This document shows, one piece after another, positions 13,245 through 53,514 of a stretch of DNA of 64,000 nt. Source of the DNA: a virus; IMG/VR virus record IMGVR_UViG_3300046791_000587, positions 1-64,000 of that record; one strand, written 5' to 3'. The notes beneath the pieces are model-generated. The model ran no database searches, was not told the origin of the DNA, and was given only the letters and a program-made list of their open reading frames with translations. Position 1 is the first letter of the stretch; every line of letters begins with the position of its first letter. A program made the position numbers and the translations under genes.

Positions 13245-14053
13245 CACGACGATACGCAGGACGACCACTGACCATGGAGCAGGGCGACCGCCGCCGCGCG
13301 GTTGCAGATCGGATGCTCAAGAGGATCGTGGATCTGGGCGGCGACGTGAGCTGGCCCGTCCCGGGCTACGTCATCGACAGCGACGAGACCGACGACCACG
13401 TGACCCACGACTACGCATTCTGCTTCGAGCATGCCGACATGGTCGCGCACGGCGACTCAATCCTGAACGGATCGGCGATGTTCGTCGTCAACGTCTCCCA
13501 GTCCGAAGCCGACCACGAGGAGTGGTGCGCGTTCCATGGCTGCAGCGTTGCGCTCAACACCGGGAGCCCGACCGACAACTGGATCGACAGCGCCCTGGGG
13601 CTGACCGAAGAGAATCCCTACGCAGTCAGCGTCACGCCGTACGAACTCGCGCGCTCCGCCTGCAGCATGCTGATCGACGACAAGCGATGGATCGTCTGGA
13701 TGCGCCAAGCCAAGCGCGTGGCGATCGAGATGCGACGCAAGCGCCGCGGAGTGGGTAGGGCTGCAGCGATGCTTGCCCTTGCGCTCACCGCCTGCACCGC
13801 CATCGCCACCCCCATGCCCCGCACCGAGGCCTGCCAGGAGCAGGCTGACGCCTGGTGTGGCGTCCTGGACCCAGGTCGGCCGGCTACCGCTTCAGGGTGC
13901 GGGATCGTCTACCGGCACTGGTGCGGTGCGGGCGGTGAGGTGTCGCCGGACGCCCAGGACGTCTGCCTCCAGGCCCTCGGCGACATGAAGCCCGACCCGC
14001 TCACCGGGTACGCCGTGCCGCGCGCCTGTCAGGCCACATGGGCGGTACCCTGA
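13241..14053 (+). CDS. Soluble domain fused in frame to a lipoprotein-like secreted domain
   Basis: 270 residues. Residues 1-163 are soluble. Near residue 164 an internal ATG (13730) begins a classical lipoprotein signal: basic RRKRR, hydrophobic stretch AAAMLALALTA, and a lipobox Cys (LTAC), followed by a 90-residue Cys-rich domain (eight further Cys, likely disulfides). The natural product may therefore be a separate lipoprotein translated from 13730, or the whole may be a type II membrane protein. Cor/Llp-like superinfection lipoproteins come to mind, but no similarity is proven. Confidence 0.5.
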   Translation: MTRRYAGRPLTMEQGDRRRAVADRMLKRIVDLGGDVSWPVPGYVIDSDETDDHVTHDYAFCFEHADMVAHGDSILNGSAMFVVNVSQSEADHEEWCAFHGCSVALNTGSPTDNWIDSALGLTEENPYAVSVTPYELARSACSMLIDDKRWIVWMRQAKRVAIEMRRKRRGVGRAAAMLALALTACTAIATPMPRTEACQEQADAWCGVLDPGRPATASGCGIVYRHWCGAGGEVSPDAQDVCLQALGDMKPDPLTGYAVPRACQATWAVP

Positions 14054-14055
14054 CC

Positions 14056-14247
14056 ATGGCTCGACGGTCAGCGAAATACCGACGCAGAGAGCATTTGCGT
14101 CGGTACCTATCCCCCAAGGAGCGGCGCGAGTTCGTGTGTAACAACAAGGTCACGTTCGTCTCGCGTGATCAAGCGCTGGAGAAGCAACCCTCTCAGTCCG
14201 CATACCTCTGCAAAGTGTGCGGCTGGTGGCACCTCTCCAGTCGATGA
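14056..14247 (+). CDS. Small basic zinc-ribbon protein
   Basis: 63 residues from the ATG at 14056. Very basic N-terminal half (RRSAKYRRREHLRRY), then a C-terminal CKVCGWWHLSS, a signature of small phage proteins placed near methyltransferases. Overlaps the start of the cytosine methyltransferase by four bases. Confidence 0.55.
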   Translation: MARRSAKYRRREHLRRYLSPKERREFVCNNKVTFVSRDQALEKQPSQSAYLCKVCGWWHLSSR

Positions 14248-15341
14248 GCGCCCTCTACAACGAGAACGACCCCTTCGCGGCCAACTGGCTGGAGAGTCTT
14301 ATCACCCATGGCCACATCGCCCCCGGACGAGTCGACCGCCGTTCCATCGCCGACCTCACACCCGCAGACGTCACTGGACCTGGACAGCGGCACTTCTTCG
14401 CGGGCATCGGCGGATGGTCGCATGCCCTGCGACTCGCCGGCATCCCCGACACCGCCGACGTCTGGACCGGCTCGTGTCCCTGCCAGCCGTTCAGCGACGC
14501 GGGCCAGGGGCAAGGAGTTCTCGACCCTCGACATCTTTGGCCAGCATGGTTCGCACTCATCCAGGAGTGTCGCCCTCCAATCATCTTTGGAGAGCAGGTT
14601 GCGAGCAAGGATGGCCTCGGGTGGCTCGACGTTGTTTTCGCTGACCTGGAACGATGCGGTTACACCGTCGGGGCGGCGGATCTGTGCGCTGCGGGCGTCG
14701 GCGCGCCGCACGCCAGACAGCGGCTGTACTTCGTGGCCTACGCCGACCGTGTCCCGCGGGGACTACTCGTACGCCCACGGGAACCACGAGACGCCAACGC
14801 TCAAGCTGGCAGGGGCGGCGAAGACCGCAGCGTGGCCGACGCCGCTGGCCAGCGATGGCACGGCGAGCCGGGAGACCTTCCACCACGGACCGAGCAACCC
14901 AACCCTGCTGGGGGCGGCACGGACAGCGGCATGGCCAACCCCGGCGGCCAGGGACTGGAAGTCCAGCGCGTCGAACATGCACGGCGAGAACGCCCGGCCC
15001 CTGAACGAGGTGGCGCGGCTGAGCCACTGGCCAACACCCGACGCGCACGCCCGCGGAACGGAGACCAAGGCGGCGGGTACGCACATCGGCGAGTCTGTGA
15101 CCTCGCTATCCCTGCAGGCGCAACTGGTGGATTCTGGGCCGGTGCCGACTGGGTGCTCTGCAGAGACCCCACCGGCGGACCGCCCGTCGCCCGGCCAGTT
15201 GAACCCGGAACTTTCGCGCTGGTTGCAGGGCTACCCGGCCGAGTGGGGCTCCTGCGGGGCTACGGAAACGCGATCGTCCCGCAGGTAGCGGCTGCGTTCA
15301 TCCGTTCAGCCCTGGATGCCCTCGCCGACATCCTGCCATGA
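14244..15341 (+). CDS. dcm: DNA C5-cytosine methyltransferase
   Basis: 365 residues. Transfers methyl from SAM to cytosine C5 in DNA. Conserved motifs in order: motif I HFFAGIGGWSHALRLAG (about 50-66), motif IV TGSCPCQPFSDAG with catalytic C80, motif VI-like IFGEQV, motif VIII QRLYFVA, a low-complexity target-recognition region rich in Gly/Arg/Pro, and motif X GYGNAIVPQVAAAF near the end. The low-complexity region coincides with an overlapping gene in another frame (14308-15288). Probably protects the element from host restriction. Confidence 0.9.
   Translation: MSALYNENDPFAANWLESLITHGHIAPGRVDRRSIADLTPADVTGPGQRHFFAGIGGWSHALRLAGIPDTADVWTGSCPCQPFSDAGQGQGVLDPRHLWPAWFALIQECRPPIIFGEQVASKDGLGWLDVVFADLERCGYTVGAADLCAAGVGAPHARQRLYFVAYADRVPRGLLVRPREPRDANAQAGRGGEDRSVADAAGQRWHGEPGDLPPRTEQPNPAGGGTDSGMANPGGQGLEVQRVEHARRERPAPERGGAAEPLANTRRARPRNGDQGGGYAHRRVCDLAIPAGATGGFWAGADWVLCRDPTGGPPVARPVEPGTFALVAGLPGRVGLLRGYGNAIVPQVAAAFIRSALDALADILP
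14308..15288 (+). CDS. Overlapping-frame gene inside the cytosine methyltransferase (repeated WPTP motif protein)
   Basis: 326 codons open in a different frame, entirely within the methyltransferase. The product has coherent family features not expected from a shadow: GQHGSHSSRSVALQSSLESR, LTWNDAVTPSGRRICALRAS, five WPTP segments (for example SWPTPTVSRGDYS, AWPTPAARDWKSS), and a C-terminal GQLNPELSRWLQGYPAEWGSC. I recognise this motif set from phage proteins annotated as hypothetical next to methyltransferases. Start at 14308 is the most upstream ATG; the true start may be internal. Function unknown, possibly a modification partner or anti-restriction protein. Confidence 0.6.
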   Translation: MATSPPDESTAVPSPTSHPQTSLDLDSGTSSRASADGRMPCDSPASPTPPTSGPARVPASRSATRARGKEFSTLDIFGQHGSHSSRSVALQSSLESRLRARMASGGSTLFSLTWNDAVTPSGRRICALRASARRTPDSGCTSWPTPTVSRGDYSYAHGNHETPTLKLAGAAKTAAWPTPLASDGTASRETFHHGPSNPTLLGAARTAAWPTPAARDWKSSASNMHGENARPLNEVARLSHWPTPDAHARGTETKAAGTHIGESVTSLSLQAQLVDSGPVPTGCSAETPPADRPSPGQLNPELSRWLQGYPAEWGSCGATETRSSRR

Positions 15342-38454: not shown

Positions 38455-39480
38455 ATGCCGTTCACGGGAACACCCATCGTCACACAGGTATCCGACAATC
38501 TGTGCAGGATCACAGGAGTCTCTGTTCTTGGGGCCCAGACTGGCTCGATCGGTCTTCACGAGTTTCCGGTTACGAACTTCGGGACGCGCCCGGACATCCG
38601 GTTGCCGGCGTCATTTCGCCCTCGCACATACGAGTACGGCAACGCGGCTGCGCATCCGGTGTCGCTGCAGGATTCGATTCAGGTGTGGTCGAACTACATC
38701 GAACCCGGCGCCATCATCGCGCCCGTTCTGATCCAGAAGGCCGGGACCACGCCCGAAGACTTCGTGGCCATCTTCGCCTACCCGGTGTCGGGGCCATCGA
38801 CCATTCTTCGGAACGCTCAGGCCTTCGCCGTGCTCGGCGGGACGGCGGTGAACAACGCGGGCGCGACAGCGGTCACCGGGGACCTCGGGGTGGCGCCAGG
38901 AGCCATCGTGACAGGGTTCCCGCCGGGAACCGTCGACGACGGAACGATCGAGATCAACACGCCGCTGGCGCAGCAGGCGCATACCGACGCCACCGATGCC
39001 TTCGTCGACCTGGCCGCGCGCACCCCGACGCAGGATCTGAGCGGTACCAACCTGGGCGGCCTGACGCTTACTCCGGGCGTCTACAAGTTCACCAACGCCG
39101 CGCAGCTCACGGGCGCGCTCACCCTCGACGCGGAAAACAACGTGTCGGCGTCGTTCGTGTTCCAGGTCGGCACCACGATGACCTTCGACCCCGCCTCCAC
39201 GGTCACGATCATCAACGTGAGCACCCTGAACGTGGCGGCCGGCAACCTGCTGCTGTGGCAGGTGGGTACCACGGTGTCCATCGGCGCTGGAGCGGCGCTC
39301 ACAGGGTCCGTCGTGGCCGCTGGCGACATCACGGCGGGCGCGGCGGCCACCATGACCGATGGTCGGCTGCTCTCGCTGGGCGGGACCGTGGCGCTCGATA
39401 CCGACACCTTGGCGCTCCCGCCGGCGCTCGCCGAGGGGCTGACGACTGGCGAGCTCGAGATCTACGTTAGGTTCCACTGA
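38455..39480 (+). CDS. Beta-sandwich paralog A with inserted ice-binding-type (DUF3494) domain
   Basis: 341 residues. Residues 1-115 and the last 12 residues (TTGELEIYVRFH) match the other three MAFTG-family proteins (39534, 40025, 42300). Between them sits a 200-residue DUF3494-type domain: FAVLGGTAVNNAGAT, GDLGVAPGAIVTGFPPG, LTPGVYKF, SASFVFQVGTTM and SVVAAGDITAGAAATM. DUF3494 is a right-handed beta-helix known from ice-binding proteins and adhesins. The insertion lies in a loop before the last strand, as expected for a surface-displayed domain. Probable adsorption or decoration protein. Confidence 0.75.
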   Translation: MPFTGTPIVTQVSDNLCRITGVSVLGAQTGSIGLHEFPVTNFGTRPDIRLPASFRPRTYEYGNAAAHPVSLQDSIQVWSNYIEPGAIIAPVLIQKAGTTPEDFVAIFAYPVSGPSTILRNAQAFAVLGGTAVNNAGATAVTGDLGVAPGAIVTGFPPGTVDDGTIEINTPLAQQAHTDATDAFVDLAARTPTQDLSGTNLGGLTLTPGVYKFTNAAQLTGALTLDAENNVSASFVFQVGTTMTFDPASTVTIINVSTLNVAAGNLLLWQVGTTVSIGAGAALTGSVVAAGDITAGAAATMTDGRLLSLGGTVALDTDTLALPPALAEGLTTGELEIYVRFH

Positions 39481-50050: not shown

Positions 50051-50289
50051 CGCTGCCTTGGTGGGTTGTGGCGGTCGCCGCCCGCTACCCAGCGCTTCAG
50101 GGACTCGGGGCAATGCAGACCGATCGCGTACATCCGCTCGACGTCGCCGACCGCGAACAATTCGGCCGCGAGCCGGCCGAACCCTGCGAGGTGCTCGCGG
50201 ATCGCCGCGCGCTCGTGCCACGCCTGGATCAGGTCCTCGGCCTTGATCCCGTGACGCGCCGCCAGTTCGTGCAGGAACCTCTGCATCAT
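50047..50289 (-). CDS. Small helical protein
   Basis: 80 residues, coupled to the PAPS-reductase-like gene by a four-base overlap. Helical throughout; no motif. Might be the small fourth member of the DGQHR/ATPase/PAPS operon, similar in size to DndE-type subunits but without similarity I can see. Confidence 0.5.
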   Translation of the reverse strand: MMQRFLHELAARHGIKAEDLIQAWHERAAIREHLAGFGRLAAELFAVGDVERMYAIGLHCPESLKRWVAGGDRHNPPRQR

Positions 50290-51710
50290 GGCTCCTGGAA
50301 CGACATCCCCTGGGCCTCCAGCGCCGCCCGTACGCGCGCGTTGTTGAACAGGGTGCCTTGCTTCAGGTCATCGCCCCAATCGAGCACTGCGGTCACGACG
50401 AGGCCTTTCTCGCGCCGGTCGTCGGCGTAGGCGGTGGCGTGCCCCAGGCTCTCCCATCGGGATGCGCTGATGCTAGCGTGGAGAGTCCACCCGCTCCCCG
50501 AGGAGCCGGCGACGACCATGACCACCGCCCACCGCCCGGTGTTGTTCCAGTCGAGGCCATCGGGCCAGAGCAGGGGGCGGTTCACGATGTGCAGCGCCAC
50601 GACCTCGCGCGGGTCCGCCACAGCTTCATGGAGCACGGCGTTGCAGTCGACGCACTCGAGCCTGAGCAGTAGCCGAGCGGGGTCGGCGAACGAGATTTCG
50701 ATCATGTGACCGTTCTCGCGGATCACGCGCGATGATCCCGGGATCGTCGAGTCTGGCAACGGGATGTCGATCGCCTCGGCATCACGGTGCTGCTGGCTGA
50801 ACCCTCGCTCGTCTGGCATGTCGCAGATGCCCCAGCGCATGCAGCCACCCTGCGGCGCCGGCGCGAACAGCGGGAACTGCTTGCCGCCATGGTCGGTCCT
50901 GGCCCACTTCACCACCGCTTCGATGCCTGAGACGCCTCGAGCCCTGGTCTGGAAGAACGAGGCGTCATCTACGTGCTTGTACCGGCCGGGCTGCTCCTCA
51001 TTGCGCGCGATCCGTAGCGCCAGCATGTCAGTCTCGAGCTGGCGGATCTCGTCGATGCGCTCCGGTGAGTGCTGGGCGATCAGCGCGATCTCTTCCTTGC
51101 CGGCGTAGATGCAGGGGTAGCACCCCACACGGCTGTGGCCGCGCTGGTACAGGGGGTTGACCTTCACGCCGTGCCGGTTGTGGATGGTGAGCACATCCTC
51201 GATGGTCCACTGCAGGAGCGGGCGCCAGACGTAGCCGCCCCACGAGCGCTGACCCTCGGGTTCGTCCTCCCACTCCGCCATCTTCGCGCGGGCCGCGCTC
51301 TCGGCGGCTCGCACCCCCATCGCGCTCACGGTCTCAGCGCCGGTCTCCTCGGTCAGCCGATCGTGGTACGCCCGCAGAGGATCGATCTTGAGCTCCATTG
51401 TGCACCACCGCTGCATCCGACCGGGGAAGCCAGCGCGATGGGCGATGCGGGCGCGCATGCCACCCTCGACACCCACCACCACGATCTCGATGTCGAGCTT
51501 CTCGCGTAGGTAGTCCAGGTAGACGTAGGTCTCAGGCGCCTCCCACCCGGTGTCAGCGAACGCAAAGCGGAGCAGGTGGCGCGGGATCTCTCCGCGTTCC
51601 ACGGCCTCGAGCAGGGCCAGGATCAGGGCTGTCGAGTCCTTCCCGCCCGACACCGAGGCCACGACCAGTAACCCAGCGGCGTCCTGGGGGATCCTGATGC
51701 GCATGATCAT
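50286..51710 (-). CDS. PAPS-reductase / DndC-like ATP-pyrophosphatase
   Basis: 474 residues. PP-loop SGGKDS at 21-26, then FADTGWEAPETYVYLDYL typical of PAPS-reductase-fold enzymes. Cysteines C103 (RWCTMELK), C197 and C200 (GCYPC) and C290/C296 could hold an iron-sulfur cluster, as in DndC. A 170-residue C-terminal extension has a beta-rich domain with CVDC. Would adenylate a substrate, using sulfur or a related donor. Four-base overlaps on both sides bind it to the ATPase and to the small gene below. Confidence 0.8.
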   Translation of the reverse strand: MIMRIRIPQDAAGLLVVASVSGGKDSTALILALLEAVERGEIPRHLLRFAFADTGWEAPETYVYLDYLREKLDIEIVVVGVEGGMRARIAHRAGFPGRMQRWCTMELKIDPLRAYHDRLTEETGAETVSAMGVRAAESAARAKMAEWEDEPEGQRSWGGYVWRPLLQWTIEDVLTIHNRHGVKVNPLYQRGHSRVGCYPCIYAGKEEIALIAQHSPERIDEIRQLETDMLALRIARNEEQPGRYKHVDDASFFQTRARGVSGIEAVVKWARTDHGGKQFPLFAPAPQGGCMRWGICDMPDERGFSQQHRDAEAIDIPLPDSTIPGSSRVIRENGHMIEISFADPARLLLRLECVDCNAVLHEAVADPREVVALHIVNRPLLWPDGLDWNNTGRWAVVMVVAGSSGSGWTLHASISASRWESLGHATAYADDRREKGLVVTAVLDWGDDLKQGTLFNNARVRAALEAQGMSFQEP

Positions 51711-52561
51711 GTCCTGCTCCGCTTCCCTGTCCGCCGTCCCCGCTGCTGCCCCATCGCCATCACCAGCGCCTGCTCGATGCCTAGCGTTTCATCCATCACA
51801 GTCGACTTTACAGCGTCAAGCGCCAGCCGCTCGACGTCCGCGAACGACATCCCCGCAAGCCGTGCGGGCCAGGCCTTCCACCCGGGCGGCGACAGCTTGG
51901 TGACCGTCCGGGTGTCGTAGCGCTCCACCAGGCGCTTCAGGAGCGCTGCTGCCTGGATGGTGGTGGGCTTGGGGAAGGTCACGATCTTGTCGAACCGGCG
52001 CTCCATGGCCACGTCCAGCATGTCCTGGTGGTTGGTCGCCGCGACTAGCACGGAGGCCTGGCCGGCGAACTCCTCAAGCATCACCAGGAGCGAGTTCGTG
52101 ATGCGGTTCATCTCCGCAACGTCGCTGAGCTGGCTGTTTCTCGCGCGCCCGATCGCGTCCACCTCATCCAGGAACAGCACCACACGCTGAGACCGCGCGA
52201 AGTCGATCACCTTGCGGAGGTTCTTGGAGGTGTCCCCCATGTACCGGTCGATGAGGCCATCGAGGCGGACGACGACCAGCGGGATGCCCATCGCCAGCGC
52301 CAAGCCACCGGCCGCTACGGTCTTCCCGCATCCGGGCGGCCCCTGGAACAGGAGTCGGTTGGCTGCGCGCAGACCACGCGTCCGCAGGTCCGCGGTGCGG
52401 AGGTTCTCGGCCAGGACACGGCCCAGCGCCTCGCGGGGCTCGTCTGGCAGCACCAGATCTGTGAGCGGCCGCAACTCCTTGACGTGGTCGAGGAGGGCCG
52501 CATCCTCGCCCAGCGGCAACTGCATGAGCGTAGGTGTCGCCATGTTCCGGGCGGTAGTCAT
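51707..52561 (-). CDS. AAA+ ATPase
   Basis: 284 residues from ATG 52561, overlapping the stop of the DGQHR gene; a longer frame to 52843 is its shadow. Walker A GPPGCGKT (74-81), Walker B VVLFLDEVD (127-135), sensor N177 (AATNH) and Arg finger region MERRFD (187-191), with a C-terminal lid. A classical FtsH/katanin-like core with no protease or membrane part. Likely drives a conformational or loading step for its operon partners. Confidence 0.85.
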   Translation of the reverse strand: MTTARNMATPTLMQLPLGEDAALLDHVKELRPLTDLVLPDEPREALGRVLAENLRTADLRTRGLRAANRLLFQGPPGCGKTVAAGGLALAMGIPLVVVRLDGLIDRYMGDTSKNLRKVIDFARSQRVVLFLDEVDAIGRARNSQLSDVAEMNRITNSLLVMLEEFAGQASVLVAATNHQDMLDVAMERRFDKIVTFPKPTTIQAAALLKRLVERYDTRTVTKLSPPGWKAWPARLAGMSFADVERLALDAVKSTVMDETLGIEQALVMAMGQQRGRRTGKRSRT

Positions 52562-53514
52562 GCGTGAGTCGACCACGTGGGCGCCGGAAGGTACGCCTTC
52601 TTGCCGGTCTCCTTTTCGATCCGACTCGAGAAGAGACCTTTCAGCTTCGCGTAGGCTGGCGCCAGATCGCGCGGAGAGAGTTGGCGCCCCATGAGCCACG
52701 CGACGTAGATCTCCGCCGCCGACACGCTCAGGAGGCACTTGGTGAACAGGTCGCGGTCGACTCGCTGGGTCTTCGCCGAGTAGGCGGTCAGGTGGATCCG
52801 CCGGTAGATCCACGCACAGAGCGTCAGGTTGAGGCTCGACCACAGGCGGTAGTTCTGGGGATCCCTGCCCCAGGCGGTGTACGCGCAGTCCATGAACGAC
52901 GCCAGTTGCTCGCAGTCGTCCGTGGTGAACTGCTCGGCCAGTTGCGCGGCCGACACGCCGCCAGTCCTGGGCGTGTCGTTGGCCGACCCATTCCAGCAGC
53001 GGAGCAGCTGCGACATGGCGATGACCGGCGAGCGCTCGTTCCGCCGGACGTTGTCATAGCCCACGTAGGTGCACTTCCTCCGCAGCTTGGCGATCGGCTC
53101 GCACGAGGCCTCCATGCCGCGCACGATGTCGTCGGGCTTGAGGTTCACGAGATGCTGGTTGACCTCGACGAACTCATCGGCCATGTCCGCCAGTGATTTG
53201 AAGTGGATGATGCGGACATCGACGTAGCCGACTGGGCAACCGCTCAGGTAGAACGCCTCCCGCCTGTGCTGCCCGTCCACCAGCCATCGATCGCCCTCGA
53301 ACACGCCGATCGTGAACGTCCCGGAGATCACCCCGCCGTTCTTCTTCATGGATTCGGCGGCGGCCGCCACCTTGTTGTTCACGCGCAGAGGGCGCTGGAA
53401 CGGCGGCGAGCGCCAGGTCTTGGCGGTAGCGGCCGTGAACTCCCACGTGTCCGTGGTGGTCTGGGTTTTTTTTTCGGCGTCGGTAGACGGCTTGGCGATC
53501 TTGAGGTCGGCCAT
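52558..53514 (-). CDS. DGQHR-domain (DndB/ParB-like) protein
   Basis: 318 residues. The DGQHRREAF motif (80-88) is the signature of the DGQHR family, which includes DndB, the regulator of DNA phosphorothioation. The preceding FQRPLRVNNKVAAAAESMKK and following QHLVNLKPDDIV fit as well. A nine-base A run (minus strand; 53466-53474) encodes E-K-K at 14-16 and could slip. The gene heads a tightly coupled trio with the AAA+ ATPase and PAPS-reductase-like protein. Confidence 0.8.
   Translation of the reverse strand: MADLKIAKPSTDAEKKTQTTTDTWEFTAATAKTWRSPPFQRPLRVNNKVAAAAESMKKNGGVISGTFTIGVFEGDRWLVDGQHRREAFYLSGCPVGYVDVRIIHFKSLADMADEFVEVNQHLVNLKPDDIVRGMEASCEPIAKLRRKCTYVGYDNVRRNERSPVIAMSQLLRCWNGSANDTPRTGGVSAAQLAEQFTTDDCEQLASFMDCAYTAWGRDPQNYRLWSSLNLTLCAWIYRRIHLTAYSAKTQRVDRDLFTKCLLSVSAAEIYVAWLMGRQLSPRDLAPAYAKLKGLFSSRIEKETGKKAYLPAPTWSTHA

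Follow-up and report, generated by a model that had tools for sequence, protein, structure and literature searches.

We identified two nested genes on the same strand of a viral genome, ORF1 and ORF2, which very likely (probability of about 0.88) encode the alpha and beta subunits of one heterodimeric C5-cytosine DNA methyltransferase; all of the evidence for this reading is comparative or predicted. Both frames are under selection as protein-coding sequence, as the comparison of relatives shows, and beta is very likely the motif IX part that is missing from the alpha chain of the same enzyme.

The locus and selection on both reading frames

The window (the whole stretch of DNA analysed, 64,000 bases) is part of a 79,908-base virus record (IMG/VR IMGVR_UViG_3300046791_000587) and has a GC content of ~65%. 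The features of the locus are collected in Table 1; a longer, GTG-started version of ORF1 begins at 14217. The original prediction, made from the sequence alone, had described two long frames over the same 980 bases, and this held, with both genes placed as in Table 1; the segments LTWNDAVTPSGRRICALRAS and LNPELSRWLQGYPAEWGSC that it had pointed out in the second protein were both found, but its count of five WPTP segments failed, as there are four (TSWPTPT, AAWPTPL, AAWPTPA, and SHWPTPD). The small ORF upstream of alpha contains a YLCKVCGWWHL segment and gave no match in the family search; the ATGA overlap may couple its translation to that of alpha, a possibility inferred only from the sequence. 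Elsewhere in this phage genome, an ORF at 38455-39480 contains an Ice_binding domain (PF11999, E=1.1e-41), and at 50286-52843 (reverse strand) a PAPS-reductase-domain ORF (PF01507) adjoins an AAA ATPase ORF (PF00004).

Table 1. Coordinates of the nested genes, their motifs and neighboring features in the window
Feature	Position	Strand	Description or basis
69-aa ORF upstream of alpha	14038..14247	+	stop overlaps alpha start (ATGA)
alpha gene (ORF1)	14244..15341	+	predicted C5-cytosine methyltransferase catalytic subunit; ATG 14244, 365 aa
GGAGAG, candidate ribosome-binding site of beta	14291..14296	+	sequence; 11 nt upstream of ATG 14308
beta gene (ORF2)	14308..15288	+	+1 frame of ORF1; ATG 14308, 326 aa; predicted target-recognition/motif IX subunit
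alpha motif IV, PCQPF (catalytic cysteine)	14478..14492	+	sequence; C80 and P79 invariant in A2 and A5
beta part under amino-acid-level constraint	14557..~15285	+	per-codon synonymous-constraint profile, 181 genes
alpha motif VI, GEQV (ENV-type)	14589..14600	+	sequence; E117 invariant
beta WPTP modules	14734..15039	+	W at 14734, 14833, 14932, 15028; presumed target-recognition region; reciprocal constraint
beta motif IX, LNPELSRWLQGYPAEW	15199..15246	+	strongest constraint in gene, z 22-38; hhalign match
alpha motif X, GNAIVPQVA	15264..15290	+	sequence; G341 and N342 >=90% conserved; directly after beta motif IX in DNA

Relatives were drawn from viral contigs, bacterial genomes (prophages and others), and phages, and both frames were given equal weight in the alignment; tblastn searches found 163 phage records with ORF2 and 425 with ORF1. 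The ORF2 frame is open over ORF1 codons 101-331 in all 180 of the 180 non-redundant relatives. We compared this with a null in which the synonymous codons of each methyltransferase were shuffled, keeping the ORF1 protein and its codon usage fixed: no +1 stop was observed in the core of the 180 relatives where 491 were expected, and 180 genes were open as compared with 12.7 expected by chance. The +2 frame is not depleted (1653 stops observed, 1497 expected), and 116 unrelated genes of the same contigs, used as a control, had 1287 +1 stops against 1327 expected, so the shuffle null is sound. Similarly, in a distant family with a median GC content of 49%, there were 28 +1 stops versus 298 expected, and 47 of 59 genes were open versus 1.3 expected; the second frame is also open at 42-50% GC. 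This distant family (L226:1294-2331 and its relatives L240-L327) comes from low-GC phages (Paenibacillus and others) with the same nested arrangement, and about one fifth of its members have stops in the +1 frame. Although the loci do not represent independent events, the internal controls account for this.

A rival explanation is that ORF2 is a chance open frame in a GC-rich gene, its order being a shadow of conserved methyltransferase residues. The GC content of the window speaks for it, as does the absence of conservation beyond the ORF1 shadow in the first 80 residues of ORF2. It is all but excluded, being refuted by the synonymous shuffles, by constraint far above the null, by openness at lower GC, by the lack of any effect in the control genes, and by the undepleted +2 frame. 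The claim that the order of the second protein exceeds what chance would give in a GC-rich shadow therefore held; a relative with a broken ORF2 frame and an intact methyltransferase would have refuted it, and none was found in this family, the ORF2 core being open in every one of the 180.

Where each frame is constrained was examined in both directions. In the forward test, ORF1 amino acids were kept, synonymous codons were drawn freely, and the conservation of ORF2 residues was scored; in the reciprocal test, ORF2 was kept with its codons free and the conservation of ORF1 was scored. Over ORF1 codons 1-100, ORF2 conservation is not above the null, and from about codon 105 (nt 14557) to about codon 345 (nt 15280) it is strong, with peaks at GSTLFSLTW, TPSGRRICALRASARR, and every WPTP, and the highest at GQLNPELSRWLQGYPAEW. 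Shared ancestry is disfavoured as the cause of this signal, because the same sequences show little or none of it upstream. A larger set gave a weaker ORF2 signal at codons 82-97, mainly from one over-represented group. In the reciprocal test, selection on ORF1 is seen over codons 1-165, within the ADW..CRDG segment, and at motif X; in the recognition region (codons 170-288), the alpha excess is 0.02-0.03, which is baseline, versus 0.20-0.23 at the beta anchors. Since alpha is at baseline where beta is constrained, the alpha recognition region is a passive shadow of beta.

Selection thus acts on both frames over ORF1 codons 105-165 and near motif IX and is one-sided elsewhere: upstream of codon 100 and at motif X only ORF1 is selected, and in the recognition modules only ORF2. 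Computing synonymous-rate suppression across an alignment had been proposed with the original prediction as a check, and this test located constraint in the second frame. The suggestion that each frame constrains the other held only regionally, in the two doubly selected stretches, and the remark that ORF2 is most ordered opposite the low-complexity recognition part of ORF1 held as well, ORF2 being the constrained frame there.

Avoidance of +1 stops begins at ORF1 codons 37-43, with 6 stops versus ~85 expected at codons 43-100; no avoidance is seen at codons 1-36. At alpha codon 37, 68 of 181 genes have an ATG that follows a Shine-Dalgarno core, a six-fold excess over the 10.7 expected; for example, GAAAGGAGTATCGAAGATG lies within the ORF1 codons for E-R-S-I-E-D-V. 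The stop avoidance together with these internal start signals indicates that beta is translated independently from an internal start and not by frameshifting; in the relatives, beta behaves like a separately translated product whose start lies 5′ of alpha codon 43, which is shown by computation, without expression data. In the window, a start scan found ATG 14308 to be the sole ATG or GTG with a Shine-Dalgarno-like core in the beta frame; its use as the beta start is inferred and remains uncertain, since most close relatives lack this ATG. A TTG conserved at alpha codon 115 (175 of 181 genes) was considered as the beta start and rejected, as constraint is already present from codon 105 and no ribosome-binding site precedes it. 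We also observed that residues 1-80 of beta (14308-14545) avoid stops in relatives while lacking amino-acid conservation of their own, and are free to drift.

Division of the methyltransferase motifs between the frames

Alpha matched PF00145 over residues 67-167 only (E=1.3e-16, 61.4 bits, cut-off 22) and PHROG 363 over its full length (E=5.6e-75), and its profile matched M.HhaI in the PDB over residues 70-169. The motif regions I, IV (PCQPF), VI (GEQV), VIII (QRLYF), and X (GNAIVPQVA) are found in its own frame, and the residues C80, E117, R158, and R160 are invariant (catalytic-domain motifs including PCQ and the QRxR-type motif VIII). In the AlphaFold model, the large domain (residues 1-166) and the motif X helix (346-363) are confident, and pLDDT falls below 50 at residues 187-286 and 325-341, which coincide exactly with the regions that encode the modules and motif IX in beta; the best Foldseek matches of this model are M.HaeIII and M.HhaI. 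Motif IX was not found in the alpha frame, so that the expectation of ten motifs in one polypeptide is not met. The claim that the methyltransferase carries every expected motif was therefore right for motifs I-VIII and X and wrong for IX.

Beta matched PHROG 1008 (E=2.2e-26), as did 95 of 95 beta relatives, and also PHROG 31772. Members of PHROG 363, 1008, and 31772 are labelled as DNA methyltransferase, a label that gives no hint of two frames in one stretch of DNA. Neither Pfam nor NCBIfam yielded a credible match for beta; a match to Reovirus_L2_8th (E=7e-4, below the cut-off, in one of 95 members) was taken as spurious. In an hhalign comparison, the end of beta aligned with the motif IX found in single-chain methyltransferases (probability 92.9, E=3.8e-7). 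AlphaFold modelled beta poorly (mean pLDDT 61.5, pTM 0.27), with confidence only in a helix, a hairpin, and a C-terminal helix; the model had no significant Foldseek match among known folds, the sequence had no relative in the PDB, and no known homolog was found for the conserved N-terminal part (helix and hairpin).

Single-chain enzymes show where this motif would otherwise be. The single-chain relative from Mycobacterium phage Fushigi has EFYEWLMGLPRGW immediately ahead of motif X, in the frame of the methyltransferase, and stops interrupt its +1 frame; an EWLMGLPRGW-type motif IX lies in frame just 5′ of motif X in Fushigi and in the actinophage-type loci L231-L233. Similarly, in the canonical methyltransferase of a Ruminococcus phage, the usual motif IX is in frame and the +1 frame is riddled with stops. 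In a Paenibacillus phage and another Mycobacterium phage, motif IX is in the +1 frame. That several single-chain methyltransferases manage without a second frame counts against the two-subunit reading. The original prediction did not recognise ORF2 as the missing part of the same enzyme; it would have been refuted by an absence of ORF2 homologs outside the overlap, and on this point separate ORF2 genes were not found, but the motif IX of ORF2 does occur in single-chain methyltransferases.

ORF2 might instead be a real protein, overprinted on the gene, that acts outside methylation, for instance in anti-restriction or regulation. Its conserved N-terminal helix and hairpin without a known homolog and the lack of a credible Pfam or NCBIfam family are in favor of this, but the strongest block of beta is motif IX, which is homologous to the single-chain motif IX and absent from alpha, and alpha is predicted to be disordered exactly opposite it; we consider a separate function very unlikely. 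Equally unlikely is one polypeptide made through two programmed frameshifts, from alpha into beta (modules and motif IX) and back into alpha (motif X). The adjacency of beta motif IX and alpha motif X in the DNA, as in single-chain enzymes, supports it, and in M.HaeIII frameshifts between motifs are tolerated and frameshift bypass is known experimentally (PMC3812077). However, it leaves unexplained the avoidance of +1 stops at alpha codons 43-100, the ATG with Shine-Dalgarno core at codon 37, the conservation of beta opposite alpha motifs VI-VIII, and the maintenance of the alpha frame at motif X, with the intervening tether left open.

A putative heterodimer and its recognition modules

In the two-subunit reading, alpha would fold as the catalytic (AdoMet-binding) domain, giving motifs I-VIII and the C-terminal motif X helix, and beta, made from its own internal +1 start, would give the WPTP recognition modules and motif IX. 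The conserved N-terminal helix and hairpin of beta may dock onto alpha, and the alpha stretch opposite the beta modules would be a passive, probably disordered tether. The assembled enzyme would presumably methylate the phage's own DNA against host restriction. That the two subunits assemble, that both are needed for activity, and that the WPTP modules determine DNA specificity is in each case inferred, as there are no expression, interaction, or activity data. As to origin, a compensating pair of indels in a single-chain enzyme may have shifted its recognition/motif IX block to the +1 frame, which is plausible and likewise only inferred; the tolerance of M.HaeIII noted above is the experimental background here.

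Two-subunit methyltransferases of this kind are already known. In M.EcoHK31I (YGGCCR), the large subunit has motifs I-VIII and X and the small subunit has motif IX (PMC3404938), the same split as in the window pair. The gene of its small subunit is nested in the large one, in another frame; for the window pair, the nested +1 frame is found to be under selection. The two differ in that M.EcoHK31I belongs to a restriction-modification system whereas the window gene sits in a phage, and in that the recognition domain of M.EcoHK31I was predicted to be in alpha (PMC3404938) whereas the selected recognition modules of the window family are in beta, alpha being only at baseline there. By analogy of architecture, not sequence homology, the window pair very likely works like M.EcoHK31I. 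M.AquI (CYCGRG) is also a C5 methyltransferase of two polypeptides, split after motif VIII (PMC3404938), but its small subunit holds both IX and X, whereas the window pair keeps X in alpha and has IX in beta, in an overlapping frame. M.HhaI and M.HaeIII resemble alpha in the fold of the catalytic domain and differ in being single chains with all motifs and no second frame. What appears to be new is the breadth of the arrangement, the evidence for recognition in beta rather than alpha, the recurrent WPTP cassettes, and the conserved internal ribosome-binding site.

Relatives of ORF2 contain between zero and five WPTP modules each, with a median length of 36 aa. Some module types, for example WPTPTTRDxKDG...NVPLNALLGR and WPTPMAGTPAQKGYNEAG, turn up again at other positions in relatives that share only ~55-75% identity over the N-terminal half of alpha. 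Multispecific phage methyltransferases are known to carry tandem recognition domains, which the WPTP modules resemble. That the modules set DNA specificity is inferred; specificity is untested, and there is no structural confirmation, given the poor beta model and the lack of a PDB match. A bolder reading, which we lean slightly against, is that these genes form a large and mostly unannotated class of phage methyltransferases, in which the recognition and motif IX block of a single-chain enzyme has moved to the +1 frame, specificity is set by exchangeable tandem WPTP cassettes (~36 aa) existing solely in the hidden frame, and the catalytic gene carries their frameshifted shadow as a tether. 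If so, phages could change methylation specificity by swapping cassettes while leaving the catalytic part untouched.

Distribution, annotation, and variant loci

The layout is kept across hundreds of phages and prophages, and standard annotation usually shows one gene of the two. Both frames were annotated as genes by the depositors of K1ind2, PhiXhv-28, and PhiXhv-5; in phiKX2, and possibly likewise in ZS04, only a piece of the second frame is annotated. A search of the open-access literature (subscription papers being outside its scope) found no account that presents the overlap as something general among phage methyltransferases. In well over 200 non-redundant loci, ~240 codons experience double or alternating selection, which places this overlap among the better-supported long same-strand cases in phages. 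The finding matters for annotation and for methylome studies, beta being absent from Pfam and NCBIfam and usually uncalled; since the second gene is usually uncalled, a clone in which only the annotated frame is preserved by recoding (for example, by codon optimisation) would be expected to be inactive. With one frame a passive shadow in some parts and both frames selected in others, the birth and upkeep of overlapping genes become directly testable.

Several relatives depart from the common layout. The actinophage-type loci (L231:1201-2172, L232:1201-2193, and L233:532-1557) carry LLPTP modules in the +1 frame, but their motif IX (LSPAFVEWMMGLPAGW) is read in the frame of the methyltransferase; they may represent a third arrangement, intermediate between the single-chain and nested forms. 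The closest relative of the window locus (L024:1501-2803, the same as the L065 contig; N-terminal part 83% identical) is frameshifted at about the position that corresponds to nt 14930, which joins the beta frame to the alpha C-terminus, so that both frames are broken; this is possibly an assembly error, a natural origin being the alternative. In another relative (L015:1432-2175), the methyltransferase frame apparently stops early inside the recognition region, and the beta frame is open for 286 codons.
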